Below are positions 8,130 to 48,592 of a stretch of 49,595 bases of DNA, piece after piece. How positions within the stretch are numbered: position 1 is the stretch's first letter; each line of letters opens with the position of its first letter. The stretch spans positions 1 to 49,595 of the forward strand of contig QKHS01000070.1 in the NCBI GenBank assembly GCA_003249955.1, written 5' to 3'. This DNA is from Bacteroidales bacterium (GTDB taxonomy: Bacteria > Bacteroidota > Bacteroidia > Bacteroidales > ML635J-15). The position numbers and the translations under genes were made by a program. Below the pieces are notes generated by a model. The model made no database searches and was not told the DNA's origin. It worked only from the letters and a program-made list of their open reading frames with translations.

Positions 8130-8277
8130 GGAATTAAGCAAAATTTCCGGGGTCTGCGTTAAATAAAAAATCATAGCGACAAATATTTGTGAGAGCGACG
8201 TGAGCAGGCCATGGAACCGCAGTCCGCATGGCAAGCTAGCCAAAGGCAAAAACGGCGGTCCGGCTCCGGAGGTGAAA
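8130..8277 (+). repeat. Dispersed intergenic repeat, copy 1
   Basis: This non-coding block matches, in inverted orientation, the block at 48471-48592. Shared pieces in order include GGAATTAAGC/GGATCAAGCC, CTGCGTTAAATAAAAAA (8154 onward), TCATAGCGA, GCGACG, AGGCCATGGAA (8206-8216) and CCGGCTCCGGAGGTGA (8260-8275). Copy 1 lacks about 10 bases present in copy 2 and carries roughly 30 extra bases near 8217-8247. No open frame of interest crosses it. With an identifiable partner 40 kb away, it is best seen as a member of a dispersed repeat family. Confidence 0.75.
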
Positions 8278-8494
8278 CCACAAAGCCGCTAACGAATGAC
8301 ATTGCCGGTAGATTGTAATACACTCAACTCGTTTGCAACTGCATACTACATCGATTACAGACTACAGATTACCGATTACAAAAACATCCGGGCTAATTCT
8401 ATTCCTGAATTGATGTAATCCACCGGAAATTTTGCCTGATCCTACAGGAGTCCGGTCAATCTGGATAACAAGCTTTCAATAGCTTATTCCTTTA
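8278..8494. other. Non-coding gap between repeat copy 1 and trpS promoter
   Basis: Together with the repeat, this fills the 565-base divergent gap between yifB and trpS. It holds a degenerate GATTACA array (8353-8380), listed separately, and otherwise no coding frame, RNA gene or strong hairpin that I can recognise. Confidence 0.5.
8353..8380. repeat. Four-copy heptamer array (GATTACA-like)
   Basis: Four head-to-tail heptamers read GATTACA, GACTACA, GATTACC, GATTACA with no spacer. The copies differ by at most two bases from each other. It lies in the intergenic region between dispersed-repeat copy 1 and the trpS promoter. Function unknown. Confidence 0.8.
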
Positions 8495-8525
8495 TTTGTA
8501 ATTTGATATTTGTTTTCTATCTTTG
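8495..8525 (+). promoter_or_regulatory. Promoter of trpS
   Basis: TTTG (8495-8498) and TATCTTTG (8518-8525) are spaced by 19 bases, an exact match to the Bacteroidetes -33/-7 consensus, 21 bases before the ATG at 8547. It also shows that the longer reading frame beginning at 8523 cannot be the true start, since that codon overlaps the -7 box. Confidence 0.85.
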
Positions 8526-8546
8526 CTGTTTCTTAGAAAAACTATT

Positions 8547-9539
8547 ATGGAAACAGTATTAAGCGGAATAAGATCAACAGGAAATCTACATCTCGGAAAT
8601 TATTTAGGGGCTGTGCAGAATTTTGTAAAAATGCAATATGACAACAATTGTTACTTTTTTATTGCAGATTACCATTCGTTAACAACACATCCTACTCCTG
8701 GCGATCTGCATAAAAGTGTCCGTCAGGTTCTGGTTGAATATCTGGCTGCAGGCATCGATCCTGAGAAATCGACTTTATACGTGCAGAGCGATGTTCCTGA
8801 AATTGCAGAATTGTATTTATTGCTCAATATGAACGCTTATCTTGGCGAACTGGAAAGAACCACTTCATTTAAAGATAAAGCCAGAAAACAGCCTGAAAAT
8901 ATAAATGCCGGCCTTTTAACTTATCCGGTCTTAATGGCTGCCGATATTGTCATTCACCATGCTGATAAAGTTCCTGTTGGTAAAGATCAGGAGCAAAACC
9001 TTGAAATGGCACGCAAATTTGCCCGTAGGTTTAACAATATGTACAATGTAGAATATTTTAAAGAGCCGGTAGCTTATAATTTTGGCAAAGAACTGGTCAA
9101 GATACCCGGACTTGACGGAACCGGTAAAATGGGAAAATCCGAAGGAAACGGAATATTTCTGGCAGACGAAGAAGCCGTAATCCGCAAAAAAATAATGCGT
9201 GCCGTTACTGATGCCGGACCGACTGAACCAAACTCTGTTATGCCCGAAGTAATCGCTAATTTGTTTACCATAATGGATATTGTTTCCACTCCGGATACTG
9301 TTAAATTCTTTAAAGAAAAATACGCAAGTTGCGAAATTCGCTACGGAGATCTTAAGAAACAACTTGCCGAAGACGTTTGCAAGCTTATTGCACCGATAAA
9401 TCAACGAATCAAAGAAATAGATTCTGACAATGAATACCTGAGTAAAGTTGCAAAACAAGGTGCCGAAAAAGCCCGCGAAAGTGCAGCTAAAACAGTAAAA
9501 GAAGTAAGGGAAATTATCGGGTTCAGAAAGTTTTATTAA
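8547..9539 (+). CDS. trpS: Tryptophanyl-tRNA synthetase
   Basis: This class Ic aminoacyl-tRNA synthetase of 330 residues charges tRNA-Trp. The Rossmann-fold signature HLGN (15-18, equivalent to HIGH) follows the opening METVLSGIRSTGNLHLGNYL, and GKMGKS (193-198) is the KMSKS loop. PVGKDQEQNLE (~143-153) is the conserved substrate-binding segment. The ATG at 8547 is chosen because an earlier in-frame TTG overlaps the promoter and the family begins at METVLSG. The gene is convergent with the ATP synthase operon, with a shared bidirectional terminator. Confidence 0.97.
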   Translation: METVLSGIRSTGNLHLGNYLGAVQNFVKMQYDNNCYFFIADYHSLTTHPTPGDLHKSVRQVLVEYLAAGIDPEKSTLYVQSDVPEIAELYLLLNMNAYLGELERTTSFKDKARKQPENINAGLLTYPVLMAADIVIHHADKVPVGKDQEQNLEMARKFARRFNNMYNVEYFKEPVAYNFGKELVKIPGLDGTGKMGKSEGNGIFLADEEAVIRKKIMRAVTDAGPTEPNSVMPEVIANLFTIMDIVSTPDTVKFFKEKYASCEIRYGDLKKQLAEDVCKLIAPINQRIKEIDSDNEYLSKVAKQGAEKARESAAKTVKEVREIIGFRKFY

Positions 9540-9553
9540 ACAAAACAACATAA

Positions 9554-9592
9554 AAAAAGCCGGTGACTGATTTTGTTAGTCACCGGCTTTTT
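9554..9592. terminator. Bidirectional terminator between trpS and atpG
   Basis: AAAAAGCCGGTGACT (9554-9568) and AGTCACCGGCTTTTT (9578-9592) form a 15-bp perfect stem with a 9-base loop, flanked by A and T tracts, so it can act for trpS (+) and for the atp operon (-), whose last stop lies only one base beyond it. Confidence 0.95.
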
Positions 9593-9593
9593 C

Positions 9594-10469
9594 TTATCCT
9601 TTAAGAGCATTGGCACCGCTCGTTATTTCAAGAATTTCATTTGTAATTGCAGCCTGGCGTGCTTTATTATACATCAGGGTGAGATCTTTTATCAGTTCGG
9701 TAGCATTATCTGTTGCCTGATGCATTGCAGTCATTCTGGCACCATGTTCGGCAGCATTGCTGTCAAGAATAGATTTAAACATTTGTACTTTCAGTGATTT
9801 TGGAATCATTTCCTCAATTATATCTTCAACCTTAGGCTCAAAAATATATTCAGAAGGATTTGATCTTTCTTCTACCTCAATTGACACAGGTACAAACTGC
9901 TCAACTAATTGATGATGAACGGCAGCATTTTTAAAACTGTTAAATACAATATCTACTCTGTCAAAAACTTTATCGGCAAACAGTTTCATTACATATTCGG
10001 CAATTTTTGATGTGTTCTCAAAATTAAGTTCGTCAAATATTTCATTGTTGCTGCCTATAACCTCAAATCCGGATTTTTTTGCAAAGTCATATGATTTTCT
10101 GCCAATGCAGTAAAATTTCACATTTCCCGCTTCTGCCTGAGCACTGTAATCTTCATTTATTAATTGCATTGCTCTTTTGCAGATATTGGCATTAAAAGCT
10201 CCGCATAATCCCCTGTTTGATGCAATAAGAACTATCAGAATTTTATCGGCTTTGCGTGTTTGGTTATAAGTGCCGACGTGGTCTTTGCCAAGGCCGGAAC
10301 TTACCTCAACCAGCACTTCGCGCAATTTATTGGCATATGGTCTGATTTGCACGACCCTATCCTGCGCTTTCTTCAACTTGGCAGCAGACACCATTTTCAT
10401 GGCAGACGTAATTTGCCTTGTCGATTTTACCGAAGTGATTCTGTTTCGTATATCTTTTAATCCTCCCAT
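9594..10469 (-). CDS. atpG: F1F0 ATP synthase gamma subunit
   Basis: The 291-residue product is the central-stalk gamma subunit, which rotates inside the alpha3-beta3 hexamer. The N-terminal helix (KDIRNRITSVKSTRQITSAM) and C-terminal helix (ATELIKDLTLMYNKARQAAI) are the conserved coiled-coil pair that forms the rotor shaft, and GLCGAFN (~78-84) is the family's conserved loop. It is the last gene of the operon, 9 bases after atpA, and its stop abuts the shared terminator. Confidence 0.97.
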   Translation of the reverse strand: MGGLKDIRNRITSVKSTRQITSAMKMVSAAKLKKAQDRVVQIRPYANKLREVLVEVSSGLGKDHVGTYNQTRKADKILIVLIASNRGLCGAFNANICKRAMQLINEDYSAQAEAGNVKFYCIGRKSYDFAKKSGFEVIGSNNEIFDELNFENTSKIAEYVMKLFADKVFDRVDIVFNSFKNAAVHHQLVEQFVPVSIEVEERSNPSEYIFEPKVEDIIEEMIPKSLKVQMFKSILDSNAAEHGARMTAMHQATDNATELIKDLTLMYNKARQAAITNEILEITSGANALKG

Positions 10470-10478
10470 AATGATGGT

Positions 10479-12059
10479 TTATTTTTTATATTTCTCGGTA
10501 AATTCAGCAGCTACTTTTGCAAGGACAGAAGTAATTTCATCTGATAATTCTCCTTTTGCCAGTCTGTCCATAATGTCTTTGTTATTTGCATTAAGGAACT
10601 CTACATAGCGCATTTCAAATTCTCTGATTTTATCCAGAGGAACATCTTTTAGTAATCCGTTTGTACCGCAGTAAATAATTGCAACCTGATTTTCGACCAA
10701 TACCGGTGAGCGTTCAGCCTGTTTCAGTATTTCAACATTTTTACGTCCTTTATCAATAACCGAAAGAGTTACAGCATCAAGGTCAGAACCAAATTTTGAG
10801 AAAGCTTCAAGTTCGCGGAACTGAGCCTGATCAATTTTTAAAGTTCCGGCGATTTTTTTCATACACTTAATCTGTGCATTACCCCCAACTCTGGAAACAG
10901 ATACCCCTACGTTAATAGCAGGACGTACACCGGCGTTGAAAAGGTTTGATTCAAGGAAGATCTGTCCGTCGGTAATAGAAATTACGTTTGTTGGAATATA
11001 TGCCGAAATATCACCTGCCTGAGTCTCAATAATCGGTAATGCAGTCAGAGATCCTCCTCCTTTTACTTTGCCTTTGAGACATTCCGGAAGGTCGTTCATA
11101 GATGCTGCAATTTCGTCTGACTGAATAATTTTGGCAGCACGTTCAAGTAATCTTGAGTGCAGATAAAAAACGTCACCAGGATAAGCTTCACGTCCCGGAG
11201 GTCTTCTCAGCAACAAGGAAACTTCACGGTACGAAACAGCTTGTTTAGACAGGTCATCATAGATGATAAGTGCCGGACGTCCGGTATCGCGGAAATATTC
11301 TCCGATTGCGCAACCTGCGAAAGGAGCATAAAACTGCATAGCAGCAGGATCAGAAGCAGAAGCTGTGACGATTACGGTATAATCCAGTGCTCCGGCTTCT
11401 TCCAGAGTTTTTGTTATATTGGCAACTGTAGATCCTTTTTGTCCGATTGCTACATAGATGCAATAAACCGGTTCGCCTTTGGCATAAAACTGCTTTTGAT
11501 TGATAATTGTATCAATGGCAATTGCGGTCTTTCCTGTCTGACGGTCTCCGATAATGAGCTCTCTTTGTCCTCTTCCGATCGGAATCATTGAGTCGATAGC
11601 TTTAATCCCGGTTTGTAACGGTTCGGTAACCGGCTGTCTGAAGATTACACCGGGAGCAATTCTTTCCAGAGGCATTTCGTGAAGTTCTCCGCCAATAGGG
11701 CCTTTGCCATCGAGAGGTTCACCTATAGTATTAACAACACGGCCGAGCATCTGTTCGCCTACCATGATAGAAGCAATCCTGCGAAGTCTTTTTACGACAT
11801 TCCCTTCTTTAATATCGTCGCTGTGTCCTAATAATACCGCCCCGACATTGTCTTCTTCAAGGTTAAGAACAATACCTTTTACCCCGTTTTCAAATTCGAT
11901 AAGCTCATTTGACTGCACATTATCCAATCCGTGAATACGTGCAATCCCGTCACCAACCTGTAAAACAGAACCAACTTCTTCGAGACTCGTTTTTGAAGAT
12001 AATCCCTCTAATTGTTGTTTTAATATTTGAGATACTTCTGATGGTTTAATATCTGCCAT
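10479..12059 (-). CDS. atpA: F1F0 ATP synthase alpha subunit
   Basis: This 526-residue subunit binds non-catalytic nucleotides in the F1 head. It has the beta-barrel N-terminal domain, Walker A GDRQTGKT (171-178), the segment [20 protein letters not shown] and the conserved [20 protein letters not shown]. Full length and no unusual substitutions are seen. It lies 21 bases downstream of atpH and 9 bases upstream of atpG. The partner beta subunit gene (atpD) is not in this window. Confidence 0.98.
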
Positions 12060-12080
12060 AATGATAACTTATTTTATGTT

Positions 12081-12638
12081 TTAAATTTTCTTTACGTATG
12101 AATCTGATTTTAATGACTTTTTGATTTCCCTGAGCTGGGTAGCGATACTTAAGTCGAGTTGCTGATGCTCTATGCGTATGATAATTCCGCCCAACATTTC
12201 GGGATTAATGTGATCATTAATTTCTACTCCTGATTTGTATGAATCGGAAACTGTTTTTGCAATTTTGTCTTTTGCGTCATTACTTAAGCCCTCGGGAGTG
12301 GTAAGAATAACTTTTTTAATGTTAAATTCTTTTCGGTACATATCTTCAAAATTTCTTGAAATATCCGATATGTATGCTTCACGATTATTTTCTACCAGCA
12401 TACGCAGAAAATTCATCGACATTTTGTTGATACTGCTTTCAAAAACATTTGATAAAAGCCTGGACTTTTCAGATGGCTTAATTATCGGGCTTGTAATTAC
12501 AGAGTAGAATTCCTGATTATCTGAAATTGTTTTTTTGATTAACGTGAAATCTGCAAAAACATCTTTTAAAATACCCTGTTCTTTTGCCAGAATAAATATT
12601 GCTTTGGCGTATCTTACTGAGATTTTACTTTGGTTCAT
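12081..12638 (-). CDS. atpH: F1F0 ATP synthase delta subunit
   Basis: The 185-residue peripheral-stalk subunit joins F1 to the b subunits (OSCP homologue). It shows the usual N-terminal helical domain (RYAKAIFILAKEQG at ~9-22, LLSNVFESSINKMSMNFLRM) and the conserved C-terminal GGIIIRIEHQQLDLSI segment, where the canonical sequence is GG..I..GD...D.S. It starts one base from the end of atpF, indicating tight translational coupling. Confidence 0.94.
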   Translation of the reverse strand: MNQSKISVRYAKAIFILAKEQGILKDVFADFTLIKKTISDNQEFYSVITSPIIKPSEKSRLLSNVFESSINKMSMNFLRMLVENNREAYISDISRNFEDMYRKEFNIKKVILTTPEGLSNDAKDKIAKTVSDSYKSGVEINDHINPEMLGGIIIRIEHQQLDLSIATQLREIKKSLKSDSYVKKI

Positions 12639-12639
12639 G

Positions 12640-13134
12640 TTAGTTAAACTTTACATCTTTTAGTAAATCATCGACCAAACTTTCGTTATCTGCTTTGGTC
12701 TTTAACTCTCTGCGCAAAACTTTTTCGGCAACCAGAACAGATAAATCGAGAACCTGATTTTTAATTTCGTCCATAGCAGCGGATTTTTGAGCAGCAATTT
12801 CCATAGCAGCAGATTTTTTAATCTTTTCAACTTCTGCCATTGCTTCCTGTTTTGCCTGTGCCACAATCTGATCTTTAATTTCTCTTGCTTCTCTCATCAG
12901 ATTATCTCTTTCAACACGTGCTTCAGCCATTATTTTTTCATTTCCTGCCTGAAGTGATTTCATCTCCTCACGTGCTTTTTCAGCCATGTTTAACGCATCT
13001 TCGATACTTTGATTACGCGAACTTATCATTTTATTGATGGGCTTCCATGCAAATTTTGTCAGAACAAGTAATAAAATCGTAAAGATAAGCCCTGTCCAAA
13101 ATATAAGTCCGATTCCTGGTGTTACGAGATCCAT
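12640..13134 (-). CDS. atpF: F1F0 ATP synthase b subunit
   Basis: The 164-residue subunit is anchored by one N-terminal membrane helix (GLIFWTGLIFTILLLVLTKF, ~9-28) and continues as a long charged helix that dimerises to form the stator stalk. The motif FAWKPINKMISSRNQSIEDAL is typical of b subunits. It lies between atpE and atpH, separated from atpE by 75 bases that contain a strong hairpin. Confidence 0.96.
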   Translation of the reverse strand: MDLVTPGIGLIFWTGLIFTILLLVLTKFAWKPINKMISSRNQSIEDALNMAEKAREEMKSLQAGNEKIMAEARVERDNLMREAREIKDQIVAQAKQEAMAEVEKIKKSAAMEIAAQKSAAMDEIKNQVLDLSVLVAEKVLRRELKTKADNESLVDDLLKDVKFN

Positions 13135-13159
13135 AATATTTCGTTTTTTTAAGTTCTTT

Positions 13160-13199
13160 AAAAAACATTTCCCGGAGCCAATCGCCCGTCGGGAAATGT
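13160..13199 (-). promoter_or_regulatory. Terminator-like hairpin between atpE and atpF
   Basis: ACATTTCCCG (13165-13174) and CGGGAAATGT (13190-13199) form a perfect 10-bp stem with a 15-base loop. On the minus-strand transcript it comes just after atpE and is followed by six U residues, so it resembles a leaky terminator or a 3'-end stabiliser. Either would raise c-subunit mRNA relative to downstream subunits. Confidence 0.75.
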
Positions 13200-13209
13200 A
13201 AGTTTGTTT

Positions 13210-13413
13210 TTAGCTTTGCAAAAGAGCAACAACAACACCAAACAAAGCAACACCTTCAACCAAAGCAGCAGCAATGATCATAGACATCTGAATGTTTTTT
13301 GCAGCTTCTGGCTGTCTTGCGATTGCGTCCATAGCAGCGCTACCAATTTTTCCGATACCATAGCTGGCACCAATTACTGCCAAAGCAGCACCAATTGCCG
13401 GAATTCCTGTCAT
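13210..13413 (-). CDS. atpE: F1F0 ATP synthase c subunit (proteolipid)
   Basis: This 67-residue hairpin of two membrane helices forms the rotor ring. Helix 1 (~5-27) has the glycine-rich packing motif GASYGIGKIGSAAMDAIARQ and the polar loop RQPE (33-36). Helix 2 carries the ion-binding carboxylate E53 in ALVEGVALF. Glu followed by Gly, without the Thr/Ser of sodium-binding rings, suggests proton coupling (inference). The N-terminus is short, with no cleaved signal. Confidence 0.96.
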   Translation of the reverse strand: MTGIPAIGAALAVIGASYGIGKIGSAAMDAIARQPEAAKNIQMSMIIAAALVEGVALFGVVVALLQS

Positions 13414-13452
13414 AATTGTATAATATTAAAGTTAAACATAAAAAATTAAATT

Positions 13453-14538
13453 CTAGTGATGTTCTTCAACTGCCATGCTTATAAACAGTGATGATAACAT
13501 TGTGAAAATATATGCCTGTAAGAATGCAACCAATAGTTCCAGGCAATTCATAAATAATACGAAAAGAACCGAAACGGGCGACATTGTAAAGGATTCAAAA
13601 ATAAATATAAGCGAAACAAGACTTAAAATTATAATATGCCCTGCTGTAATGTTTGCAAAAAGACGGATTGTTAAAGCTACCGGTTTTACAATCATTCCCA
13701 TTATTTCAACAACTGCCAGAATCGGTTTTACAAAAACAGGAACTCCCGGCATCCACAGTGTGTGTTTCCAGTAATGCTTGTTGCCGTTTAAATTAATTGC
13801 AAAAAATGTAAATAACGCCAGTGTCATTGTTACTGCAATGTTCCCTGTTACGTTTGCTCCTCCCGGGAAAAACGGGATTATTCCGAAAAGATTATTAAAA
13901 AAGATGAAGAAAAAGACCGTAAGTAAATATGGTAAAAACTTATCTGTCTTTTTGCCAAGATTAGGGTAAACAATCTCGTCTTTTACAAATAAAATCAATG
14001 GTTCCATAACCGATTGTAAACCTCTCGGTCTTCCGGGATTCTTTTTATAGGCTTTGGCAACACTTACAAAAATGAGAACAATAAACAAAGACACAATAAT
14101 CATTGCAAAAACATTCTTTGTAATAGAGAAGTCAAGCGGCATTTCATTAAGAACAACATTTTCCCCTTCTTTTTCTTCGAACCGGAGTTGTCCGTCAGTA
14201 TCTGCCATGTAAATCTTCTCGTCATATAATGCATATTTGTTATCACCTTTTTCAACTATCTTATGCCCGTGCTCAAATTCAGATGACATAAAAACGTCAA
14301 ATTGTCCCTTATAAACAACAATAACCGGTAAAGGAATGGAAACCACAACCTCTTCACCGTTATCTTTTTTATAATCCAGAATATGCCACTGGTGCGCATC
14401 TTTAATATGATGCATTATCAGTTCAATGACATTAAATTTCTCACCCTCTCCTTCATTTTCCTTTGCATCAGAAGCCATCACAATATTGCTAAAACACAGA
14501 ACTGAACAAAGACTGATTAAATATAAAATATGCTTCAT
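13453..14538 (-). CDS. atpB: F1F0 ATP synthase a subunit
   Basis: The 361-residue subunit is longer than the ~270 residues of E. coli because of a ~150-residue N-terminal extension: a signal-like segment (MKHILYLISLCSVLCFSNIVMA) and a charged extracytoplasmic part. The catalytic channel domain follows, with about five to six membrane helices and the essential Arg in LTIRLFANITAGHII (~285-299). Such extensions are usual in Bacteroidetes. The gene precedes atpE by 39 bases. Confidence 0.95.
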   Translation of the reverse strand: MKHILYLISLCSVLCFSNIVMASDAKENEGEGEKFNVIELIMHHIKDAHQWHILDYKKDNGEEVVVSIPLPVIVVYKGQFDVFMSSEFEHGHKIVEKGDNKYALYDEKIYMADTDGQLRFEEKEGENVVLNEMPLDFSITKNVFAMIIVSLFIVLIFVSVAKAYKKNPGRPRGLQSVMEPLILFVKDEIVYPNLGKKTDKFLPYLLTVFFFIFFNNLFGIIPFFPGGANVTGNIAVTMTLALFTFFAINLNGNKHYWKHTLWMPGVPVFVKPILAVVEIMGMIVKPVALTIRLFANITAGHIIILSLVSLIFIFESFTMSPVSVLFVLFMNCLELLVAFLQAYIFTMLSSLFISMAVEEHH

Positions 14539-14620
14539 AATAATCTTTTACTTAATTTAAGTGGCACTACAAATTTACATTTTCAATTTTAATATGCTAA
14601 TAAAAAATGAAATATTTTTT

Positions 14621-15013
14621 TCATACATTATTTTTAAACTGTCGCACAAGATAAACAACTTCTGCCGTAAGATAAATGAAATAAATCATGAAAAATTGTA
14701 AAACATATTCTTTGCGGAAAAAACTGTCATTTATTAAGTGCGGAAGCAAAAACAATATGGCGAAAAACATTTTTACAAGGCTTGTTGCAAGATATGCATA
14801 ACCCAACATGTCAGGCTTTGACCTTTTTAGTATTATCTTAACCGCAACAACAGTCGCAATTGTGATTACAAACATAAACGGATGGACAAACAACACCCCC
14901 GGAGCGTAAAAGTATCGTGAAAAAAAATGTAATAACGAATAATGTCCGGCAAAAATAAAAATTGCCGCAAAACTGAACTTCTGTAGAGACTGAAAATCCT
15001 GTTTACTTATCAT
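14621..15013 (-). CDS. AtpI-like four-helix membrane protein of the atp operon
   Basis: This 130-residue protein has four predicted membrane helices (roughly 15-33, 43-60, 72-95, 103-124) and no other recognisable motif. Its place between atpZ and atpB is where AtpI, a c-ring assembly helper, is encoded in many bacteria, but sequence similarity is weak. Its ATG overlaps the atpZ stop by 11 bases, so translation is coupled. AtpI-like function is inferred from position and topology. Confidence 0.65.
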   Translation of the reverse strand: MISKQDFQSLQKFSFAAIFIFAGHYSLLHFFSRYFYAPGVLFVHPFMFVITIATVVAVKIILKRSKPDMLGYAYLATSLVKMFFAILFLLPHLINDSFFRKEYVLQFFMIYFIYLTAEVVYLVRQFKNNV

Positions 15014-15239
15014 TGATTATTTTTGAAATTACCAGATACATTGATCCGATTACTGCAAATAAAGATAAGCCTATTGTAAACCACGGAGTGTCATTATTAA
15101 AATATTTATCAAGCTGTTTTCCGCCTAAGGCTCCCCCTGCAATCATAATTCCCATTTCCAAAGCCAGAGACGAATACCTGACAAATTTATTTAAGCCGTC
15201 CTTATTATCTTTGGGCTTGTCTTCGGGATTATTACTCAT
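15003..15239 (-). CDS. atpZ: AtpZ/AtpI family ATP synthase accessory protein
   Basis: The 78-residue protein has a charged N-terminus and two membrane helices containing GIMIAGGALGGKQLDKYF and PWFTIGLSLFAVIGSMYLV, the pattern of AtpZ/AtpI family proteins linked to F-ATPase operons and proposed Mg/Ca transport or c-ring assembly. The start is placed at the ATG at 15239 (MSNNPEDKPKDNKD) and not at an upstream ATG at 15317, because the upstream extension lies wholly inside the bactofilin gene. The ATG overlaps the bactofilin stop by 8 bases. Confidence 0.8.
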   Translation of the reverse strand: MSNNPEDKPKDNKDGLNKFVRYSSLALEMGIMIAGGALGGKQLDKYFNNDTPWFTIGLSLFAVIGSMYLVISKIINDK

Positions 15240-15612
15240 TTGATCCGTCTCCGCCGTTATCTGTGCGGATATTTCCTCCCATATTGCAACTTCCTGTAAA
15301 AATTGCTCCCGGCTCAATTGATAATTTTGAAGTAATTATATCTCCGTAAATTCTTGCTGTAGATTTTAAAATTAATAATTCCTCAACAGTAATTTTTCCT
15401 TCCACCTGTCCGGAAATTTCAGAGTTTTTACAATAAATTTCTCCTAAAATCTTTCCGGGAGCGCCCAATACAAGTTTAGCCTTCATGTTAAGGTTTCCGG
15501 TTAAACTTCCGTCAATTCGTAAATCCCCGTTTGATACAATATCTCCGTTTACAGAAGTTCCACTTCCGATAATGTTTAAATTGTTCTGTTCCTCTTCGTA
15601 ACTTCTTGCCAT
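15232..15612 (-). CDS. Bactofilin (polymer-forming cytoskeletal protein)
   Basis: This 126-residue protein consists of a short tail and a bactofilin beta-helix (residues ~14-110) with repeating G-hydrophobic turns: GDIVSNGDLRIDGSLTGNL, GEIYCKNSEISGQVEG, ARIYGDIITSKLSIEPGAIF. Bactofilins polymerise without nucleotides and scaffold cell-envelope or localisation functions. It is the first gene of the operon leading into the ATP synthase and overlaps atpZ by 8 bases. It has a minus-strand -7 box just upstream. Confidence 0.92.
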   Translation of the reverse strand: MARSYEEEQNNLNIIGSGTSVNGDIVSNGDLRIDGSLTGNLNMKAKLVLGAPGKILGEIYCKNSEISGQVEGKITVEELLILKSTARIYGDIITSKLSIEPGAIFTGSCNMGGNIRTDNGGDGSNE

Positions 15613-15636
15613 AGTCTTAGTTTTTTTTGCGATTCA

Positions 15637-15644
15637 CAAATATA
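15637..15644 (-). promoter_or_regulatory. -7 box (TATATTTG) for bactofilin-atp operon
   Basis: Minus-strand TATATTTG (15644-15637) lies 24 bases before the bactofilin ATG. No TTTG -33 box is seen at 19-21 bases, so this is a partial match and probably the operon promoter. Confidence 0.5.
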
Positions 15645-15701
15645 AAACAAAAGATTATGTTTTTTTAAATATTTTAAAAAGAAATAACGAATTCCGGTTA
15701 A

Positions 15702-15757
15702 ATAAAAAACAGAAGTCAGGCCATTCATTAAATAATAAATAGTCAACTCCTGTTTAT
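15702..15757 (-). terminator. Probable terminator after the DsrE-like gene
   Basis: On the minus strand AAACAGGAGT (15755-15746) pairs with ACTTCTGTTT (15716-15707), ten pairs with one G-U, around a 29-base loop, then a U-rich tail. It lies 22 bases after the dsrE-like stop. Confidence 0.55.
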
Positions 15758-15777
15758 CCGGGGTATCCTGGCAATGC

Positions 15778-16281: not shown

Positions 16282-16300
16282 AAAATTTAATTTTAAATTA

Positions 16301-37017: not shown

Positions 37018-37019
37018 TG

Positions 37020-40636: not shown

Positions 40637-40663
40637 AAAGCGGCCGGGACTCCCGAACCGCTC
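40637..40663 (-). terminator. Strong minus-strand terminator with no nearby gene
   Basis: The minus transcript reads GCGGTTCGGGA, a short apex, then TCCCGGCCGC and six U residues (plus-strand A run 40634-40639). The stem is GC-rich with one small interior asymmetry. On the plus strand it lacks a T tract, so it does not serve rpiB. It suggests an unannotated minus-strand RNA ending here. Confidence 0.7.
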
Positions 40664-40960: not shown

Positions 40961-41149
40961 TACTGTAATTTTAGAAGAAACGTGCTTAATAGCTATATTA
41001 ATATTTGTCGTATGTCGAAAAGATGAAAGCGTTGCGTTTTGCGTTTTGTGCTACATGTATAAGAATATGTTGAGGTTACTTTTAAATTCTGATGTTTTGT
41101 GTGTTTTTACCAAATTCAGGCATGTGTTCAGTTCATAAAACAAACGGTG

Positions 41150-42139
41150 TTATGCGTTCATAAGATTGCATCCGCGAACTTCTGCAGAATCAAAGCGGCC
41201 ATTAATCCAAAATGAGCCGTTTTCGGAAATTTTCCCCAAATCTCCCGTTTCAATAAAGCAGCACGAGTTAATGTTTGCCAGATCAATTACATTTATAGCT
41301 CCGGTACCGGAATTTCTTACAGTTAACGGGTCTGCGGCATCTCTCACGAGCACTTTCATCCACGGAGGACAGAAGTACTGTCCGTTTTGTCCGGAATATG
41401 CCTGTGACAATAATTCAGTCATTCCATATTCTGAATGTACAGAACTAACGCCAAATGATTTTTTAATAACCGAATGTAGTTCTTCCCGTGTGATTTCTTT
41501 ACGGTTTCCTTTCATTCCTCCGGTTTCCATAATCAGACCTGTTTTCATTTTTGTCTGATATTTTTCTGCAAAATCCAGCAGGGCAAAACTGACCCCGATA
41601 AGCAGGTATTTTTCACTTTTCCTCTCAAGTTTTTCAATCAGTTTAATCAGCTTGTCAAATTCATTCAGAAAAAACCCGCTGTCTTTTTTACCCGATAGTT
41701 TAATCAGCTCATCAACCATATATATCAGGCTTGAACCGCCTCTTTCGAGATACGAAGGAAGCAATGCTATTATTGTGTAATCCTGAGGCGATCCGTAAAA
41801 AAGTTCAAATGATTTTAAAAATGAATCTCTGTAAACTGATGTGTCGCTTACAAAATGACTTGAAGGAATATTTCCTGTTGTAGAACTGGATGTGAATATT
41901 GTAAAGTTATCGTGTTCTCCCGTAACTACTTTGTGTGTTTTAAAGAATTGAGCCGGTAAAAACGGAATGTCATTAATATTTTTGATTTTTGACGGATCTG
42001 TATTTAAGAACCTGCAGAAATCTCCGTAAGTTTTGTTATTCCGGTATTGATATCTGAATGCTTCAACAGCAAGCACCCCAAACATTTCAGGCGTTATTCC
42101 CGAGAAGATATTTTTATAATAATTATCTAAACTAAACAT
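41150..42139 (-). CDS. LuxE-type acyl-protein synthetase family protein
   Basis: The 329-residue protein resembles LuxE/acyl-protein synthetases of the ANL superfamily. TSSSTTGNIPSSHFV (~84-98) is the nucleotide-binding loop, LIMETGGMKGNRKEIT (~203-218) and HSEYGMTELLSQAYS (~233-247) match later ANL motifs, and SCCFIETGDLG is near the C-terminus. LuxE activates fatty acids as acyl-AMP for transfer; related proteins act in O-antigen or lipid modification. The ATG at 42139 is chosen because a longer frame starting with TTG at 42157 overlaps the -7 box. It is apparently monocistronic, so the substrate is unclear. Confidence 0.82.
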   Translation of the reverse strand: MFSLDNYYKNIFSGITPEMFGVLAVEAFRYQYRNNKTYGDFCRFLNTDPSKIKNINDIPFLPAQFFKTHKVVTGEHDNFTIFTSSSTTGNIPSSHFVSDTSVYRDSFLKSFELFYGSPQDYTIIALLPSYLERGGSSLIYMVDELIKLSGKKDSGFFLNEFDKLIKLIEKLERKSEKYLLIGVSFALLDFAEKYQTKMKTGLIMETGGMKGNRKEITREELHSVIKKSFGVSSVHSEYGMTELLSQAYSGQNGQYFCPPWMKVLVRDAADPLTVRNSGTGAINVIDLANINSCCFIETGDLGKISENGSFWINGRFDSAEVRGCNLMNA

Positions 42140-42154
42140 TTGATTTTGTTTTTG

Positions 42155-42162
42155 CAAAAATA
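42155..42162 (-). promoter_or_regulatory. -7 box (TATTTTTG) of LuxE-type gene
   Basis: Minus-strand TATTTTTG (42162-42155) lies 15 bases before the ATG at 42139. It overlaps the T tail of the upstream gene's terminator, so the two signals are packed together. Confidence 0.5.
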
Positions 42163-42192
42163 AAAAAAAGAGGCATAAGAACTATGCCTCTT
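42161..42192 (-). terminator. Terminator after the 42213-43013 gene
   Basis: On the minus strand AAGAGGCATA (42192-42183) pairs with TATGCCTCTT (42177-42168 region), then eight T residues follow, 20 bases after the stop. Confidence 0.88.
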
Positions 42193-42212
42193 GCGAATAC
42201 ACCCCTTGAGTC

Positions 42213-43013
42213 TTATTTTTTCTTAAAGACAACGTATTCGTTTTCAAAGTTTAAAAAGTACTCCCCCTTTTTTAAGTTCGAAACATCCACCACATCTCCT
42301 GTCCCGGATATAAGTTCTTCGCCGAATTCATCAATTACGGCATAATATGTATATGAGCTGAAAGCGATTTCTTTAGCTACTTTTGTAAGTTTTGTCGTAA
42401 CGGTAACCGGCTCTTTTTCGATGTTAAAGACCATTTCGTCCGAATAGAATTTACGGTTTAGATGATCTACCTGGTAAACACGATAGCGGTTTTCTCCATT
42501 ATAAGGATATACTTTTTGGGAATAGTTACGACGTCCGGGGCCTCCTTCTCCGGGAATACGGCCGACTTCAATCCACTTTCCCCATCTGAATTCTTCTACG
42601 TGAAAAGGTAACTTTCCTGATTCATTGTCGGTAACAAATTTGAGTACATTATCGTAACCTAAAACCTGAGAAACGACTTCGTAAGTACATAATGGTTTTA
42701 ATACTTCCGGATTTACAAGTTTAGGAGTGCAGTCCTCGTGATGTTTTATTACAACTTCATACTCCTGACCGAACTGTAAGCCTACGTAATCAAGGCTGAT
42801 TCTGAAAGCACTTGAATTTATTACATCTTCGAATTTTTTGTCATTAACAAAAACTTCATAGGCACAATACTCTTCTCCGATATCCAACATAGGATTTATT
42901 ATGTAAAGATCCTTACCCTGATATACCCCCTTCAAAATCATATCGTCTGCTTTCAGATTAAGTCCCGAAAAAACCAGTACAATTGTTAAAAATGCTAAAG
43001 TGCTGTTTTTCAT
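42213..43013 (-). CDS. Secreted protein of unknown function
   Basis: The 266-residue protein has a signal peptide (MKNSTLAFLTIVLVFSGLNLKA) and a body of beta-rich segments (KDLYIINPMLDIGEEYCAYE, FRISLDYVGLQFGQEYEVVI, ENRYRVYQVDHLNRKFYSDE) resembling fibronectin-like or Ig-like strands. The C-terminus (VVDVSNLKKGEYFLNFENEYVVFKKK) recalls a T9SS tail in shape but lacks the usual IYPNP motif, so export to the surface is uncertain. It has its own promoter and terminator. Confidence 0.75.
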   Translation of the reverse strand: MKNSTLAFLTIVLVFSGLNLKADDMILKGVYQGKDLYIINPMLDIGEEYCAYEVFVNDKKFEDVINSSAFRISLDYVGLQFGQEYEVVIKHHEDCTPKLVNPEVLKPLCTYEVVSQVLGYDNVLKFVTDNESGKLPFHVEEFRWGKWIEVGRIPGEGGPGRRNYSQKVYPYNGENRYRVYQVDHLNRKFYSDEMVFNIEKEPVTVTTKLTKVAKEIAFSSYTYYAVIDEFGEELISGTGDVVDVSNLKKGEYFLNFENEYVVFKKK

Positions 43014-43044
43014 AGTTTTACAAATTTTATTAACAAATTATGAA

Positions 43045-43076
43045 CAAATTTAGTATGTTAATTGGCTTTTTCCAAA
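43045..43076 (-). promoter_or_regulatory. Promoter of 42213-43013 gene
   Basis: On the minus strand TTTG (43076-43073) and TAAATTTG (43052-43045) are separated by 20 bases, a full match to the Bacteroidetes consensus, 31 bases before the ATG. The -33 box sits in a two-copy 12-bp tandem repeat (43072-43095). Confidence 0.75.
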
Positions 43077-43221
43077 TTTTTTTCCAAATTTTTTTTAAAA
43101 AATATACAACAGTAAAGAAATTGTTACGTTATTCATCTGATTATCAACATGTTTATGGTTGTTAAGATTTTTTTGTTTGTAACAATAAAAATTAAGCTGA
43201 AAATTTTGTTTTACAAATATT

Positions 43222-43229
43222 ATTTTTGT
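43222..43229 (+). promoter_or_regulatory. -7 box (TATTTTTG) of MORN-repeat gene
   Basis: TATTTTTG matches TAnnTTTG and lies 30 bases before the ATG at 43259. The nearest TTTG upstream is too close (12 bases), so the -33 box is unclear. Confidence 0.5.
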
Positions 43230-43258
43230 GTTGATTCGGACAAATAAAATTTAACTAA

Positions 43259-45046
43259 ATGAAAAACTGCACTTTTTTCTTATTTATTTTTATAAGCATT
43301 GCTGCTTTTGCTCAGGAATACACTTATGACACAACTTATTATCAAAACGGAAAAGTAAAGGAAACCGGTGTTCTTCATATGGGACAAAAGTCCGGCACAT
43401 GGAAATATTATTCTCCTGAAGGTAAAATTATGGCAGAGACAGACTATTATAAAGATGTTCTGCATGGTTTAAATAAGGTGTATTTCCCGGACGGGAAAGT
43501 TAAAGAGGAATATAATTACTGGGGAAATGAGCGACACGGGGCTTTTGTCGAAAATTATAAAGATGGAAATCCTTCGGTAAAGGGTTATTATCACAGTAAT
43601 CTTAAAGACAGCATCTGGCAGATATTTTATGAAGGCGGGAAGTTACAGTCGGAGGTAATTTATAAAAAAGGGGTTCTTGTTAAAATACAAAGCTTCTATA
43701 CTCCGGCAGGGAAACAGACTGTTATTAATGGTAACGGCGAAATGGTAAGCTATTATCCCAGTCTTCAGAAAAGTTCCGAAGGAAAAATCGAAAATGGTTT
43801 GGAGCAGGGCTTATGGGTATATTACTATGAAAGTGGTAAAAAAGCATCGGAGGGAAATTATAATAACGGGATAAGGGTAGGAACATGGTATGAATGGTAC
43901 GAGAACGGGAACAAGAAAAGCGAAGTAAGTACAGAATCAGGTATGAATATATTCTGGACAGAGAACGGGGATAAAGAAATGGAGGGAAAGCTTACTGACG
44001 GTAAACGTGAGGGGTTATGGACTTACTGGTATCCGAACGGAAAAGTTAGGAGTACAAATTTATATGAGAATGATCTTCGTAACGGGTTGCAGACAAAGTT
44101 CTTTGAAAACGGACAAAAACAATCAGAATTAAATTATGTTAACGGAGTTCTTGAAGGTGAAGCTCATTTCTGGCTTGAAGATGGTAAGAAAGATATTGAC
44201 GGAAACTTTTCCGGTGACCTTCAGGATGGCTTGTGGACATATTGGCGTACCGACGGAACCAAAGGGAATGAAGGAAATTTTGTTAAAGGAAAGATGGACG
44301 GACGTTGGAATTTTTGGTATTCAAACGGCAAAATCTGGAAAGAAGTAGATTACACAAACGGTCTTAAGGACGGAGCCTGGAATGTTTTCTTTGAAAACGG
44401 AAATCAATTCAGACAGGGCCAGTTTGAGAACGATTTTGAAGTTGGGGAATGGAAAGAATGGTATTCGGACGGAACTCTTGCTATGCAGGGAACATACAAT
44501 CTTGGAGTAATGACTGGTACCTGGACGACATGGCATGAAAACGGAGAAAAGAAATCTATGATTGAATATAAAGACGGACTTATTGCCGGAAAAAATTTCT
44601 TTTGGTATCCTAACGGAAAAAAACAGCTTGAAGAAAGCTATAAACTGATTGAAGTAAAATCAACAGATGATTTCAGTGTAAAAAACAAAACGACATCTGT
44701 TCTTCACGGAGCATATAAGACTTACAATATCCGGGAATTTGAGATTATTTCGGGTGTTTATTCGGAAGGTCAGAGAAACGGTAAATTTGTTTACAAAAAC
44801 AATAACGGAGGAACGGTAAAAGTTGAAAATTATAAGATGGATAAACCTGACGGGAAATGGCAGACTTTTTATGATTTCGGTCCTTTGGAGTCTGAGGTTA
44901 ATTATGAAAATGGACTTAAGGAAGGGAAATCCACTTATTACGACCAAAAAGGGAATATTACTTTTCAGGCGGTCTTTCATGCCGGAAGACAAACGGATAT
45001 TTTAATTGATAACAATCCGAACTTACCTCAGAATAAGAACAGATAA
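43259..45046 (+). CDS. Large secreted MORN-repeat (YwqK-type) protein
   Basis: The 595-residue protein has a signal peptide (MKNCTFFLFIFISIAAFAQ) followed by roughly 22-24 consecutive MORN-variant repeats of about 23 residues. Cores such as GLWTYWYPNGK, GTWYEWYENGNKKSE and GEWKEWYSDGTLAMQG show the W.Y..G pattern. Repeats like these form an extended beta-solenoid-like scaffold. YwqK-type proteins with the same repeat are often labelled antitoxin components, but no toxin is nearby. An envelope location is inferred from the signal. Confidence 0.85.
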   Translation: MKNCTFFLFIFISIAAFAQEYTYDTTYYQNGKVKETGVLHMGQKSGTWKYYSPEGKIMAETDYYKDVLHGLNKVYFPDGKVKEEYNYWGNERHGAFVENYKDGNPSVKGYYHSNLKDSIWQIFYEGGKLQSEVIYKKGVLVKIQSFYTPAGKQTVINGNGEMVSYYPSLQKSSEGKIENGLEQGLWVYYYESGKKASEGNYNNGIRVGTWYEWYENGNKKSEVSTESGMNIFWTENGDKEMEGKLTDGKREGLWTYWYPNGKVRSTNLYENDLRNGLQTKFFENGQKQSELNYVNGVLEGEAHFWLEDGKKDIDGNFSGDLQDGLWTYWRTDGTKGNEGNFVKGKMDGRWNFWYSNGKIWKEVDYTNGLKDGAWNVFFENGNQFRQGQFENDFEVGEWKEWYSDGTLAMQGTYNLGVMTGTWTTWHENGEKKSMIEYKDGLIAGKNFFWYPNGKKQLEESYKLIEVKSTDDFSVKNKTTSVLHGAYKTYNIREFEIISGVYSEGQRNGKFVYKNNNGGTVKVENYKMDKPDGKWQTFYDFGPLESEVNYENGLKEGKSTYYDQKGNITFQAVFHAGRQTDILIDNNPNLPQNKNR

Positions 45047-45144
45047 GAAATGTCTTAAGTTAGCAGCGTTTTGCAGCTTTGTTATAATTGCATTTCAGGC
45101 AGTTCTGATTTTAAGACACCATTGTAAAACAATCGTAAGCATTG

Positions 45145-45720
45145 ATGAAGAAAGCTATTATTTTAATATTCATATTTTTTTCGGTAAAATCGTTCTCACA
45201 GGAGCAAAAATACCTGTACAGCGGAGGAATGTTATTGTTCCAGCCCGGTTATACAATGGCAGAAAATCCCAACCAGAAAATTGAGTCGTTAGGATTCGGA
45301 GTAGGCGGGGAATTGAGATTTTACATAAAAAATCACCTTACTGCCGGCATTATCGGGGGAAGTCAGAAAACAGGATATAATTCGTCAGGATCAGAAAATT
45401 CATACATCAGTCTCGGGTATGGCGGCCCGTTTATAGGATATACTTATTCCGGGAACAGATTCAGGATTTGTGCATCTGTCAGTGCCGGAAAAGGACGAAT
45501 TAAAAATTTACATATCGAAAGTCAGGATGGAGTGGTTTTAAATAATGCCGAATATTATAATTATTCTGCCTGGGTAGGGTATCCTATGTTGAGTTTTGAC
45601 TATTTTATGACAAAAAAAATAGCCTTTACTTCGCAGGTTATTTATTTAACTGCCCTATATAATGAAAATGATTTGTATTTTTGTCCGGTTTTTCAATTAG
45701 GAGTTTTATTTAACAGATAA
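45145..45720 (+). CDS. Small outer-membrane beta-barrel-like protein
   Basis: The 191-residue protein has a signal peptide (MKKAIILIFIFFSVKSFSQ) and alternating hydrophobic strands (LGFGVGGELRFYIKNHLTAG, SLGYGGPFIGYTYSGNRFRI, VFQLGVLFNR) that suggest an 8-stranded barrel ending in an aromatic-containing terminal strand. No specific family is recognised. The ATG at 45145 is preferred over a TTG one codon upstream. It lies 98 bases after the MORN gene and 6 bases before glyS, so partial co-transcription is likely. Confidence 0.75.
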   Translation: MKKAIILIFIFFSVKSFSQEQKYLYSGGMLLFQPGYTMAENPNQKIESLGFGVGGELRFYIKNHLTAGIIGGSQKTGYNSSGSENSYISLGYGGPFIGYTYSGNRFRICASVSAGKGRIKNLHIESQDGVVLNNAEYYNYSAWVGYPMLSFDYFMTKKIAFTSQVIYLTALYNENDLYFCPVFQLGVLFNR

Positions 45721-45726
45721 TAAATA

Positions 45727-47265
45727 ATGGTACAGGAAGATATTTTTAAGAAAATTATTGCACACTGCAAAGAGTATGGTTTTATTTTTCAATCATCAGA
45801 ATTATATGACGGTTTAAGTGCTGTTTATGACTATGGTCAGAATGGTGTGGAACTGAAAAACAACATAAAAGAGTATTGGTGGAAAGCGATGACTCAGATG
45901 AACGAAGAAGTTGTAGGAATTGACTCTGCCATTTTTATGCACCCTACAATCTGGAAAGCATCAGGTCACGTGGATGCTTTTAACGATCCGTTGATTGACA
46001 ATAAAGATTCGAAAAAGAGATATCGTGCCGACGTGCTGGTTGAAGATTATCTTGAAAAAATAAATGATAAAATTAAAAAAGAGGTTGAAAAAGCTGCAAA
46101 ACGCTTTGGTGACAGCTTTGACGAGCAACAATACCGGACTACCAACCCTAGAGTAATGGAATATGCTCAGAAAATAGAGTCGGTAAGGACCGAATTTTTT
46201 GGAGCATTGGAAGCAAATGATCTGGAAAAAGTCCGTCAGATAATAATTGATCTGGAAATCGCATGTCCTGTGTCGGGAAGCAGAAACTGGACAGAAGTTC
46301 GTCAGTTTAACCTTATGTTCGATACAAAATTAGGCTCTGTTGCCGAAGGTGCCAACACTATTTACCTGCGTCCTGAAACAGCTCAGGGGATTTTTGTAAA
46401 CTATCTGAACGTACAGAAAACCGGACGTATGAAAATTCCTTTCGGGATTGCCCAGATTGGTAAGGCTTTCCGTAACGAAATTGTTGCACGTCAGTTTATT
46501 TTCCGTATGCGTGAGTTCGAACAAATGGAAATGCAGTATTTTGTAAAACCGGGAGAAGAATTAAAATGGTTTGAGTCCTGGAAAGACAAACGTATTAAAT
46601 GGCACATGGCAATGGGAATTAATCCTGCAAAATACCGCTGGCATGCTCATGACAAACTTGCACACTATGCTAACGCAGCTTTCGATATCGAGTTTGAATT
46701 CCCGTTCGGGTTTAAAGAACTTGAAGGAATCCATTCCCGTACAGATTTTGATTTGACACAACACCAGAATTTCTCCGGTAAAAAAATCCAGTATTTTGAT
46801 AATGAATCCGGCGAAAGCTATGTGCCGTATGTAGTTGAAACATCTGTAGGTCTGGACAGAACATTCCTTTCGATACTTTCTGCATGTTATAACGAAGAAC
46901 AGGTCGGAGAAGAAACAAGAGTTGTATTAAATATTCCTGCACCTTTAGCTCCTGTAAAAGTTGCCGTTTTACCGCTTGTTAAAAAAGACGGTTTGCCGGA
47001 GCTTGCACGCGAAATTCTGAATGAACTTAAGTTTGACATGAACTGCATGTACGAAGAAAAAGATTCTATCGGGAAACGTTACCGTCGTCAGGATGCGATA
47101 GGAACACCTTTCTGTATTACTGTTGATCATCAGTCTGCAGAGGATAGGACTGTTACTATACGTTACCGTGACACAATGGAGCAGGAAAGAATTCCGGTTG
47201 AGAAAGTTGCCGGAATTGTAAGAGAAAAAGTTGATCTGAAAAACCTGTTGAAGAAATTGGTATAA
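45727..47265 (+). CDS. glyS: Glycyl-tRNA synthetase (dimeric, eukaryotic/archaeal-like type)
   Basis: The 512-residue class II synthetase charges tRNA-Gly. It has the motifs of the homodimeric alpha2 enzyme: DGLSAVYDYGQNGVELKNNI near the start, motif 2 IGKAFRNEIVARQFIFRMRE (~238-257), the motif 3-like VVETSVGLDRTFLSIL (~370-385), and a C-terminal anticodon-binding domain (~400-512). This single-chain type is common in Bacteroidetes, unlike the alpha2beta2 enzyme of E. coli. It is followed by an EamA gene after 18 bases. Confidence 0.95.
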   Translation: MVQEDIFKKIIAHCKEYGFIFQSSELYDGLSAVYDYGQNGVELKNNIKEYWWKAMTQMNEEVVGIDSAIFMHPTIWKASGHVDAFNDPLIDNKDSKKRYRADVLVEDYLEKINDKIKKEVEKAAKRFGDSFDEQQYRTTNPRVMEYAQKIESVRTEFFGALEANDLEKVRQIIIDLEIACPVSGSRNWTEVRQFNLMFDTKLGSVAEGANTIYLRPETAQGIFVNYLNVQKTGRMKIPFGIAQIGKAFRNEIVARQFIFRMREFEQMEMQYFVKPGEELKWFESWKDKRIKWHMAMGINPAKYRWHAHDKLAHYANAAFDIEFEFPFGFKELEGIHSRTDFDLTQHQNFSGKKIQYFDNESGESYVPYVVETSVGLDRTFLSILSACYNEEQVGEETRVVLNIPAPLAPVKVAVLPLVKKDGLPELAREILNELKFDMNCMYEEKDSIGKRYRRQDAIGTPFCITVDHQSAEDRTVTIRYRDTMEQERIPVEKVAGIVREKVDLKNLLKKLV

Positions 47266-47283
47266 GTTGCCGGAAGTAAATTG

Positions 47284-48189
47284 ATGGAAAACAGGAAAAA
47301 ACAACTTCTGGTTTACGGGCTCCTCACTATTTCTATGATTTTGTGGGGAACTTCGTTTGTCTGGACCAAAGTTGCTTTACAATATTACAATACAAATACA
47401 ATTGTATTCTTTAGGTTATTTGTTTCTGCAATAGTTCTTATTCCGGTTCTTATTGTAACTAAAAAATTCAGATTTCCGGCAAAAAAACATCTGCTGATGT
47501 TTATGCTTTTGGCTTTGTTTGAGCCCTTTCTTTACTTTCTGGGGGAAACAAACGGGTTACGCTTTCTTGATCCCTCCATGGCATCTGTATTAATCTCTGT
47601 AATTCCATTGTTTACTCCTTTTGTTGCTTATTATTTTTTAAAGGAAAAGATAACCTTTGTTAATTTATTAGGGATTATAATTTCTATCAGCGGAATTATT
47701 GTTTTGGTTTTTGGTAAAGACATGAGTATGGAAGTTGCCCCTGTAGGACTGGCTTTGATTTTTCTATCTATTTTTGCCGCCAACGGGTATAGTGTAATGA
47801 TTAAAAAATTACCGGAAGAGTATTCAATTCTCAATATTATTTTTTGGCAGAATATCTTTGGGATGTTGTATTTCAGCCCGATTGTTTTTTTTACATCTTA
47901 TAACGACTTTTTTGTTACCGGATTTGTTAAAGAAGGATTCTGGGCAATTGCAGAGCTGGGATTTTTCGCATCTACGCTGGCTTTTCTGTTCTATATGTAC
48001 GGTCTGAAATTTATGTCTATCACCAAAGTAAATGTTTTTACCAATACTATTCCTATTTTTACCATCATCATTTCATGGCTTTTCCTTGATGAAGATATAA
48101 GTACGAAAAAGATTACCGGTATATTAATTGTAATTCTGGGAGTTATAATTTCGCAGTTGAAGTACAGGATTTTTTCTTCTAAAAAATAA
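47284..48189 (+). CDS. EamA-family (DMT) transporter
   Basis: The 301-residue protein has about ten helices in two EamA repeats (~10-142 and ~155-298). Segments ILWGTSFVWTKVALQYYN and ANGYSVMIKKLPEEYS open the two halves, and ETNGLRFLDPSMASVLISVI is conserved in the family. The substrate is unknown. It shares only general family features with the other EamA protein at 28301-29215. The ATG at 47284 follows an in-frame TTG by one codon. Confidence 0.9.
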   Translation: MENRKKQLLVYGLLTISMILWGTSFVWTKVALQYYNTNTIVFFRLFVSAIVLIPVLIVTKKFRFPAKKHLLMFMLLALFEPFLYFLGETNGLRFLDPSMASVLISVIPLFTPFVAYYFLKEKITFVNLLGIIISISGIIVLVFGKDMSMEVAPVGLALIFLSIFAANGYSVMIKKLPEEYSILNIIFWQNIFGMLYFSPIVFFTSYNDFFVTGFVKEGFWAIAELGFFASTLAFLFYMYGLKFMSITKVNVFTNTIPIFTIIISWLFLDEDISTKKITGILIVILGVIISQLKYRIFSSKK

Positions 48190-48470
48190 GCATCAGGCAA
48201 TATTTCTGGGGGATTATAAAAACTTAAGAATAAAAATATTTCATAAAAAAATAAAGACTAAAATATTCTTTATTCTCTCTTTCTTTTGTCATTGCCACAA
48301 AAGAAACAAAAAGGCTAGGAAAAACAAAGCTTCAACCCGCCTCAATCAAAACAACAGAATTGTATTGCAACCGGGCCTAAAACAAAGTCCCTTCACACAT
48401 ACCTTTAAAACTTTGCTTTAGTCAATGACATAATAATGTCAGCTTGCCACAATTCTAGTTGTTTTGATTT
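48190..48470. other. Non-coding gap leading into repeat copy 2
   Basis: No gene is seen. It includes a perfect 10-bp inverted repeat (48280-48306) that may be the outer end of dispersed-repeat copy 2. The remaining sequence has no partner elsewhere in this window, so I cannot say whether it belongs to the element. Confidence 0.5.
48280..48306. repeat. 10-bp perfect inverted repeat near repeat copy 2
   Basis: TTTCTTTTGT (48280-48289) and ACAAAAGAAA (48297-48306) are exact complements around a 7-base spacer, forming a stable hairpin on either strand. It lacks a T tract immediately after the stem on the plus strand. Confidence 0.75.
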
Positions 48471-48592
48471 TCACCTCTGGAGCTGGCCCGCTGTTTTTCC
48501 ATGGCCTACCCGCGTCGCATTACTGAATATTCTTCGCCATGATTTTTTTATTTAACGCAGAAAAACTCTTCCCCAGAAATTCGGCTTGATCC
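48471..48592 (-). repeat. Dispersed intergenic repeat, copy 2 (inverted)
   Basis: Read on the minus strand this block aligns to 8130-8277. It shares CTGCGTTAAATAAAAAA, TCATGGCGAA, GCGACGCGGG, AGGCCATGGAA and GCTCCAGAGGTGA in the same order. It is about 25 bases shorter overall. It sits between an EamA gene and tRNA-Cys, with no coding frame. Confidence 0.75.

Follow-up and report, generated by a model that had tools for sequence, protein, structure and literature searches.

The window analysed here is a stretch of 49,595 nucleotides of a Bacteroidales bacterium (contig QKHS01000070.1; its genome is called G000, and the other sampled genomes and the loci carry G- and L-numbers). It contains two copies, A and B, of a dispersed repeat on opposite strands. 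Both are miniature inverted-repeat transposable elements (MITEs) with ends matching those of an ISAon1/ISL3-family insertion sequence of the same genome, and intact MITEs of this family enclose a conserved RNA structure. Copy A is situated between an Mg-chelatase/ComM-like gene (6443-7981, minus strand) and a gene (8523-9539, plus strand) for a W/Y-type class I tRNA synthetase. Copy B is found between an EamA transporter gene (47281-48189, plus strand), the stop of which adjoins the element, and a tRNA-Cys gene (48686-48757, minus strand).

The MITE family and its insertion-sequence partner

The initial annotation described two shorter blocks as copies of a dispersed non-coding family. Their relatedness is real: the local alignment of 8131-8442 (plus) with 48190-48592 (minus) scores 46.0, against a mean of 11.0 and a maximum of 19.5 in 500 dinucleotide-preserving shuffles. 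All of the conserved segments named in the annotation are present and collinear in both copies, with gaps of about 9 and 30 bases (about 10 and 30 had been estimated). The block ends had been set too short, as the full elements measure 312 and 403 bp. Neither contains a recognised gene or a transposase of its own; the longest mechanical open reading frames (ORFs) overlapping them encode 84 and 83 aa and were not compared with protein libraries.

The expectation of many genomic copies was borne out, and the outcome named as fatal to it, an absence of further copies and of significance over shuffles, was not found. When 31 of the 59 BLAST matches of copy A were merged with 28 matches of an RNA model, at least 39 distinct family places were obtained in the genome (BLAST alone found 11, the model alone 8, and both methods 20). 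With 2 mismatches allowed, the pattern CTGCGTTAAATAAAAAA has 29 sites in the 4.70-Mb genome, 5 of them exact, and its reversed pattern has 6. The terminal inverted repeats (TIRs) of the family are close to GGATCAAGCAAAATTTCTGGGG. The TIR pattern GGATCARGCAAAATTTCYGGGG is found at 46 genomic sites with up to 3 mismatches and the reversed pattern at none. Copies with both ends located fall into three length classes: about 250-340 bp (like copy A, with little of the RNA left), about 390-405 bp (like copy B), and about 480-600 bp.

ISL3 elements generate target duplications of 8 bp. Among the 19 copies with both ends located, the 8-bp flanks are identical in 7 and agree at 7 of 8 positions in 3 more, giving 10 of 19 copies with duplications (re-dealt flanks: mean 0.62, maximum 5). 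A 1.4-kb insertion sequence on contig C6 of the same genome (5229-6639) carries two exact family TIRs around transposase ORFs. One ORF matches the NCBIfam model "ISAon1 family transposase N-terminal region" with 152 bits; the other matches "ISAon1 family transposase" with 502 bits and also Pfam DDE_Tnp_ISL3 with 190 bits. A GATTACAAAAA-like stretch behind the TIR is common to one MITE end and one end of the C6 element. The description "MITE-like" was therefore right, given the TIRs, the 8-bp duplications, and the insertion sequence with the same TIRs. The MITEs are probably mobilised in trans by the transposase of the C6 element, and this layer of the system is a further member of an already known kind.

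Tandem GATTAC-type repeats are present inside three short MITE copies of the window genome (L012, L014, L040). On contig C7 an IS1-family transposase gene (L120, 932-1636) is close to a lone exact ISAon1-type TIR (C7, 60876-60897).

A conserved RNA inside the elements

The RNA fold consists of helix P1, a long helix P2 capped by P3 and P4, and a 3' hairpin P5 whose loop is able to pair back in many copies. The initial annotation had proposed a check for compensatory changes, and this revealed strong covariation of the interior. In 13 aligned interiors 24 of the 57 base pairs show two-sided change; in 60 distinct rows (drawn from 64 matches, 5 of them antisense) this rises to 53 of 57, with 96.1% of cells able to pair. 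All five covariation measures of the 60-row set are above all 500 shuffles and all slid versions. On the sense strand G-U combinations greatly exceed A-C (185 vs 16, or 78 vs 14 without three G-U-rich columns; 59 rows, 3 antisense). The excess suggests a fold of RNA, and of that strand.

Of 84 copies examined, 76 have P5 behind the core. For 52 of them (a sum from the table of copies) the loop of P5 can form at least 4 pairs with the final six core bases, and the pairing occurs in several variants, such as CUUGAU/AUCAAG, CUUGAC/GUCAAG, CUUGAA/UUCAAG, and CUUAUG/CAUAA. Over 43 distinct loop-core pairs the mean complementary run is 4.26, compared with at most 4.12 in 2000 re-dealings. In several RNA copies of G018 (L104, L106, L111) hairpin P3 contains an extra segment of about 80 bases.

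The initial annotation had posed a MITE and a structured element as alternatives, but intact copies are both at once. The structured part of the proposal holds for copy B, whose folded-RNA interior spans 48280-48518 on the minus strand, with the reservation that copy A has lost most of that part and is not among the 28 RNA-model matches of its genome. The match of model R1 to copy B is expected, since copy B is one of the 13 training sequences (row L030). The two stretches as first delimited showed no folding signal (z -0.11 and -0.03), because the RNA is missing from one copy and was truncated by the boundary set for the other; for two full copies the folding signal is clear (z -3.86 and -4.75). 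The features of both window copies are collected in Table 1.

Table 1. Positions of the MITE features within the window
Feature	Position	Strand	Basis
MITE copy A, 312 bp, short type, RNA largely missing	8131-8442	+	TIR alignment, length; no RNA model match
Copy A left TIR, GAATTAAGCAAAATTTCCGGGG	8131-8152	+	2 mismatches to TIR pattern
Copy A right TIR, GGATCAGGCAAAATTTCCGGTG	8421-8442	-	1 mismatch to TIR pattern
Copy A left target duplication, TATAGGAG	8123-8130		7/8 identical with 8443-8450
Copy A right target duplication, TACAGGAG	8443-8450		7/8 identical with 8123-8130
Copy A remnant of RNA 5' part plus extra segment of about 30 bases, without helices P2-P5	8195-8277	+	Alignment with copy B, comparison with longer copies
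MITE copy B, 403 bp, RNA-bearing, without target duplication (3/8)	48190-48592	-	TIR alignment, flank comparison
Copy B 5' TIR, GGATCAAGCCGAATTTCTGGGG	48571-48592	-	2 mismatches to TIR pattern
Copy B 3' TIR, GCATCAGGCAATATTTCTGGGG	48190-48211	+	2 mismatches to TIR pattern
Copy B RNA core, helices P1-P4	48313-48518	-	Model R1 match, 216.3 bits, E 7.9e-56
Copy B 3' hairpin P5, TTTCTTTTGT-GGCAATG-ACAAAAGAAA	48280-48312	-	Sequence; other copies of same type carry P5

Distribution of the RNA and its second vehicle

A search of 61 genomes with a full copy matched mostly the interior, in two genomes of the same genus, G001 and G018 (at L105 of G001 an end was matched as well), and gave single weak matches in six further genomes. 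Within the genus the RNA model detects 7 of 26 genomes: G000 (28 matches), G018 (25), G001 (9), G011 and G024 (4 each), G009 and G019 (1 each). The wider scans scored six candidates per genome and are lower bounds (G000 yields 6 there, not 28). In the order, at least 25 of the 393 genomes sampled have the RNA, G000 included, and these belong to 21 of 206 sampled genera; across the phylum, at least one genome besides G000 has it among 395. One exact pattern matched 4 stretches in 2 metagenome-assembled genomes of a genome contig collection and nothing in a viral contig collection.

In Rfam 15 only the tRNA-Cys of the window reaches its gathering score. At E≤5 the two copies obtain scores far below gathering only, and no family fits the RNA. 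No description of it was found among the papers that the literature searches turned up, but it may be identical with one of the 3161 candidates of PMC8040213.

Outside the ISAon1 MITEs the RNA is often carried by another kind of miniature element. Direct repeats of at least 30 bp (32-277 bp) flank it in 30 of 82 loci (all unique RNA loci of this group with sufficient flank), while a control pairing flanks of different genomes gave 0 of 82. TIRs such as CCTGACTTGTCCCC lie inside a number of these long repeats; sites of this type number eight in G402 and are absent from eight other genomes. Of the G402 elements, 7 are readable on both sides. Repeats of 37-235 bp flank every one of these, and in 5 the repeats lie at most 3 bp from each TIR. 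By reading, the RNA is present in four of the eight G402 elements; the other four combine such ends with a different interior. The latter (L229, L231, L233, L234) share CTGACTTGTCCCC ends and long flanking repeats, and their interior is made of GCAGAGTTGCGCAGAGG-type repeats.

The excerpts of PMC2266710 report long variable repeats of 8-514 bp for IS1549 and IS1634 and family ends of the form C-----YT. Of 10 RNA-bearing genomes tested, 7 have an IS1634-family transposase match above the cut-off; within the genus this is so in 5 of 7 RNA-bearing vs 4 of 19 RNA-free genomes (p 0.028). Fourteen IS1634-family loci were inspected. In four of them (L240, L248, L246, L251; G018 and G242) long repeats of 65-214 bp are flush with or near both ends, which are of the CCTGACTT or CCTGTTTT type. 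Two others (L238, L247) have one-ended repeats and eight have none tied to the ends, some of these loci being near contig ends. The TIR CCTGACTTGTCCCC is also found at L248, so that RNA MITEs and an autonomous element have it in common, and 23 of 24 end bases are identical between RNA locus L163 (G242) and autonomous element L245 (G024). Such TIR identity with IS1634-family elements is established for part of the RNA loci.

The window genome has no IS1634-family transposase above the cut-off. Both window copies have ends of the ISAon1 and not the IS1634 type, and long direct repeats were found around neither. Elsewhere in this genome, L208 has kept IS1634-like ends with repeats about 75% identical, and L216 is a composite in which an RNA-bearing ISAon1-type MITE sits inside IS1634-like ends with a 68-bp repeat (93%). 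At four further model matches (L209-L211, L214) neither kind of end is clear. Long repeats surround 3 of the 19 ISAon1-type copies, L216 among them, a count that has no control as it comes from a single genome. The other two, L019 and L212, are flanked by direct repeats (111 bp and 63 bp) despite the 8-bp duplications of their family.

At L104, L112, and other long-repeat loci of G018 and G001, the truncated gene copy within the repeat diverges from its full counterpart chiefly close to the element. The difference at L104 includes a run of synonymous codon changes.

A proposed passenger RNA and its possible role

The joint reading preferred here is that the MITEs are mobilised in trans and carry the RNA as a passenger, which is under selection at the RNA level, has changed its vehicle at least once and acts in read-through 3' untranslated regions (UTRs). 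As a whole this is judged about evenly balanced between right and wrong. The simplest history would begin with an IS1634-type ancestor, followed by capture of the RNA by ISAon1 ends in the lineage of the window. The RNA is not needed for movement, because short copies and the RNA-free G402 elements have spread too. Action in read-through 3' UTRs is the best guess from sequence: after read-through transcription the RNA might serve as a compact 3' UTR domain, and such a domain could protect or end the host transcript, which may make an insertion easier to tolerate. The fullest version of the proposal, a new structured RNA class that is a transferable transposon passenger, selected as RNA across the order, switching between unrelated DDE-type vehicles, the IS1634- and ISL3-type MITEs, and acting within host 3' UTRs, is more tentative.

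Gene context is the basis for the 3' UTR component. There are 96 unique RNA loci with genes on both sides, 34 in convergent, 16 in divergent, and 46 in co-directional settings. In the co-directional settings the RNA is on the gene strand in 33 of 46 cases (p 0.0045), and other settings of the analysis gave 32/44, 33/46, and 27/39 (p 0.004-0.024). The Bacteroidota-type promoter motif is TANNTTTG. Upstream of the RNA it is not enriched, with 2 occurrences in 30 copies (about one copy per genome) vs 2.3 expected. Cis action in 3' UTRs is favoured with moderate confidence over a trans-acting RNA because of this lack of a promoter motif and the sense bias behind genes.

Several observations weigh against the preferred reading. 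On the structural side, the 60-row alignment was fitted to the RNA model. Loop-core runs of at least 4 occur in 24 of 43 pairs vs 19.4 in re-dealt pairs, a count reached by 92 of 2000 re-dealings, and the CUAGCC type of the window genome forms just 3 bp between loop and core. P5 as an ordinary terminator was dropped, since the U-run precedes the stem. The sense bias weakens to 27/39 (p 0.024) in the strictest setting and is absent among the ISAon1 MITEs of G000 (4 and 4, tallied from the locus list). Insertion preference could be its cause, and RNA-free short copies are too few (3 and 1) to serve as an orientation control.

Among the alternatives, trans action by a separate non-coding RNA is possible but rather doubtful; the RNA might, for example, be part of a ribonucleoprotein aiding persistence of the element, working in the manner of transposon guide or retron RNAs without being one of them. 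The structure, the G-U use of the sense strand, and the 3' pairing all suit a stable RNA, and some copies are behind opposite-strand genes (the 16 divergent and 13 antisense of the 96 loci). The promoter motif, however, is not in excess, and among 43 loci the largest recurrent neighbour protein group besides the RNA itself comprises 3 loci in 2 genomes. Interpretations as a retron or TnpB RNA were set aside for G000, which has no reverse transcriptase match (PF00078, E≤0.001) and no match to the TnpB-type model PF07282. Of the 7 genomes of the genus that carry the RNA, 3 have a PF00078 match, one of these below the cut-off, and PF07282 is above its cut-off in G018 alone among the 26 genomes. 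For an IscB omega RNA there is no HEARO match in Rfam; the IscB gene and other partners were not searched for.

That the structure is a mere relic, inherited by copies of a recent common source and now without function, is unlikely. Copies within a genome are indeed alike and the RNA-less short derivatives still multiplied, but compensatory changes across 21 genera are not maintained by drift alone. It is quite improbable that the fold acts in transposition or target selection as DNA, in the form of a cruciform or a single-strand hairpin. DNA hairpins serve some mobile elements, but the G-U excess on one strand speaks for RNA; in addition, the elements that carry the RNA belong to two unrelated transposase families, and other elements have such ends but no RNA. 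Retroposition of the RNA itself, of which the long repeats in 30 of 82 loci were first read as a sign, is hardly credible: the repeats abut TIRs that lie inside them, RNA-free elements and autonomous IS1634-family elements have them too, the excerpts of PMC2266710 report the same for IS1549 and IS1634, and G000 has no PF00078 match.

MITE interiors are usually regarded as leftover DNA. With the passenger reading, conservation resides here in the interior while the ends can be exchanged, and for this reason what a transposon gains from a folded RNA becomes a testable question. The interest of the system rests on one conserved RNA domain common to MITEs of two unrelated insertion-sequence families, a domain without an Rfam 15 match despite its 28 model matches in G000, 25 in a relative, and its presence in 21 of 206 genera. 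In addition, the MITEs with long repeats broaden the behaviour reported for IS1634 and IS1549 to include small non-coding elements.

Compared with known systems, the RNA resembles the bacterial structured non-coding RNA classes of Rfam in size, covariation, and a 3' loop-core pairing usual for such classes, but differs in being multi-copy inside MITEs and in having no gathering-level match. The second vehicle resembles the IS1634/IS1549 family in its long repeats abutting TIRs, with autonomous copies bearing such ends in G018 and G242; its RNA elements are, however, only 0.4-0.9 kb long and transposase-free, and only part of the elements carry the RNA. The window MITEs agree with the ISL3 family, its ISAon1 group and derived MITEs in having ISAon1-type TIRs of the same genome and 8-bp duplications, and in being non-coding and dispersed. 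They differ in that the interior of their family does not come from the transposase region and instead holds a conserved RNA.

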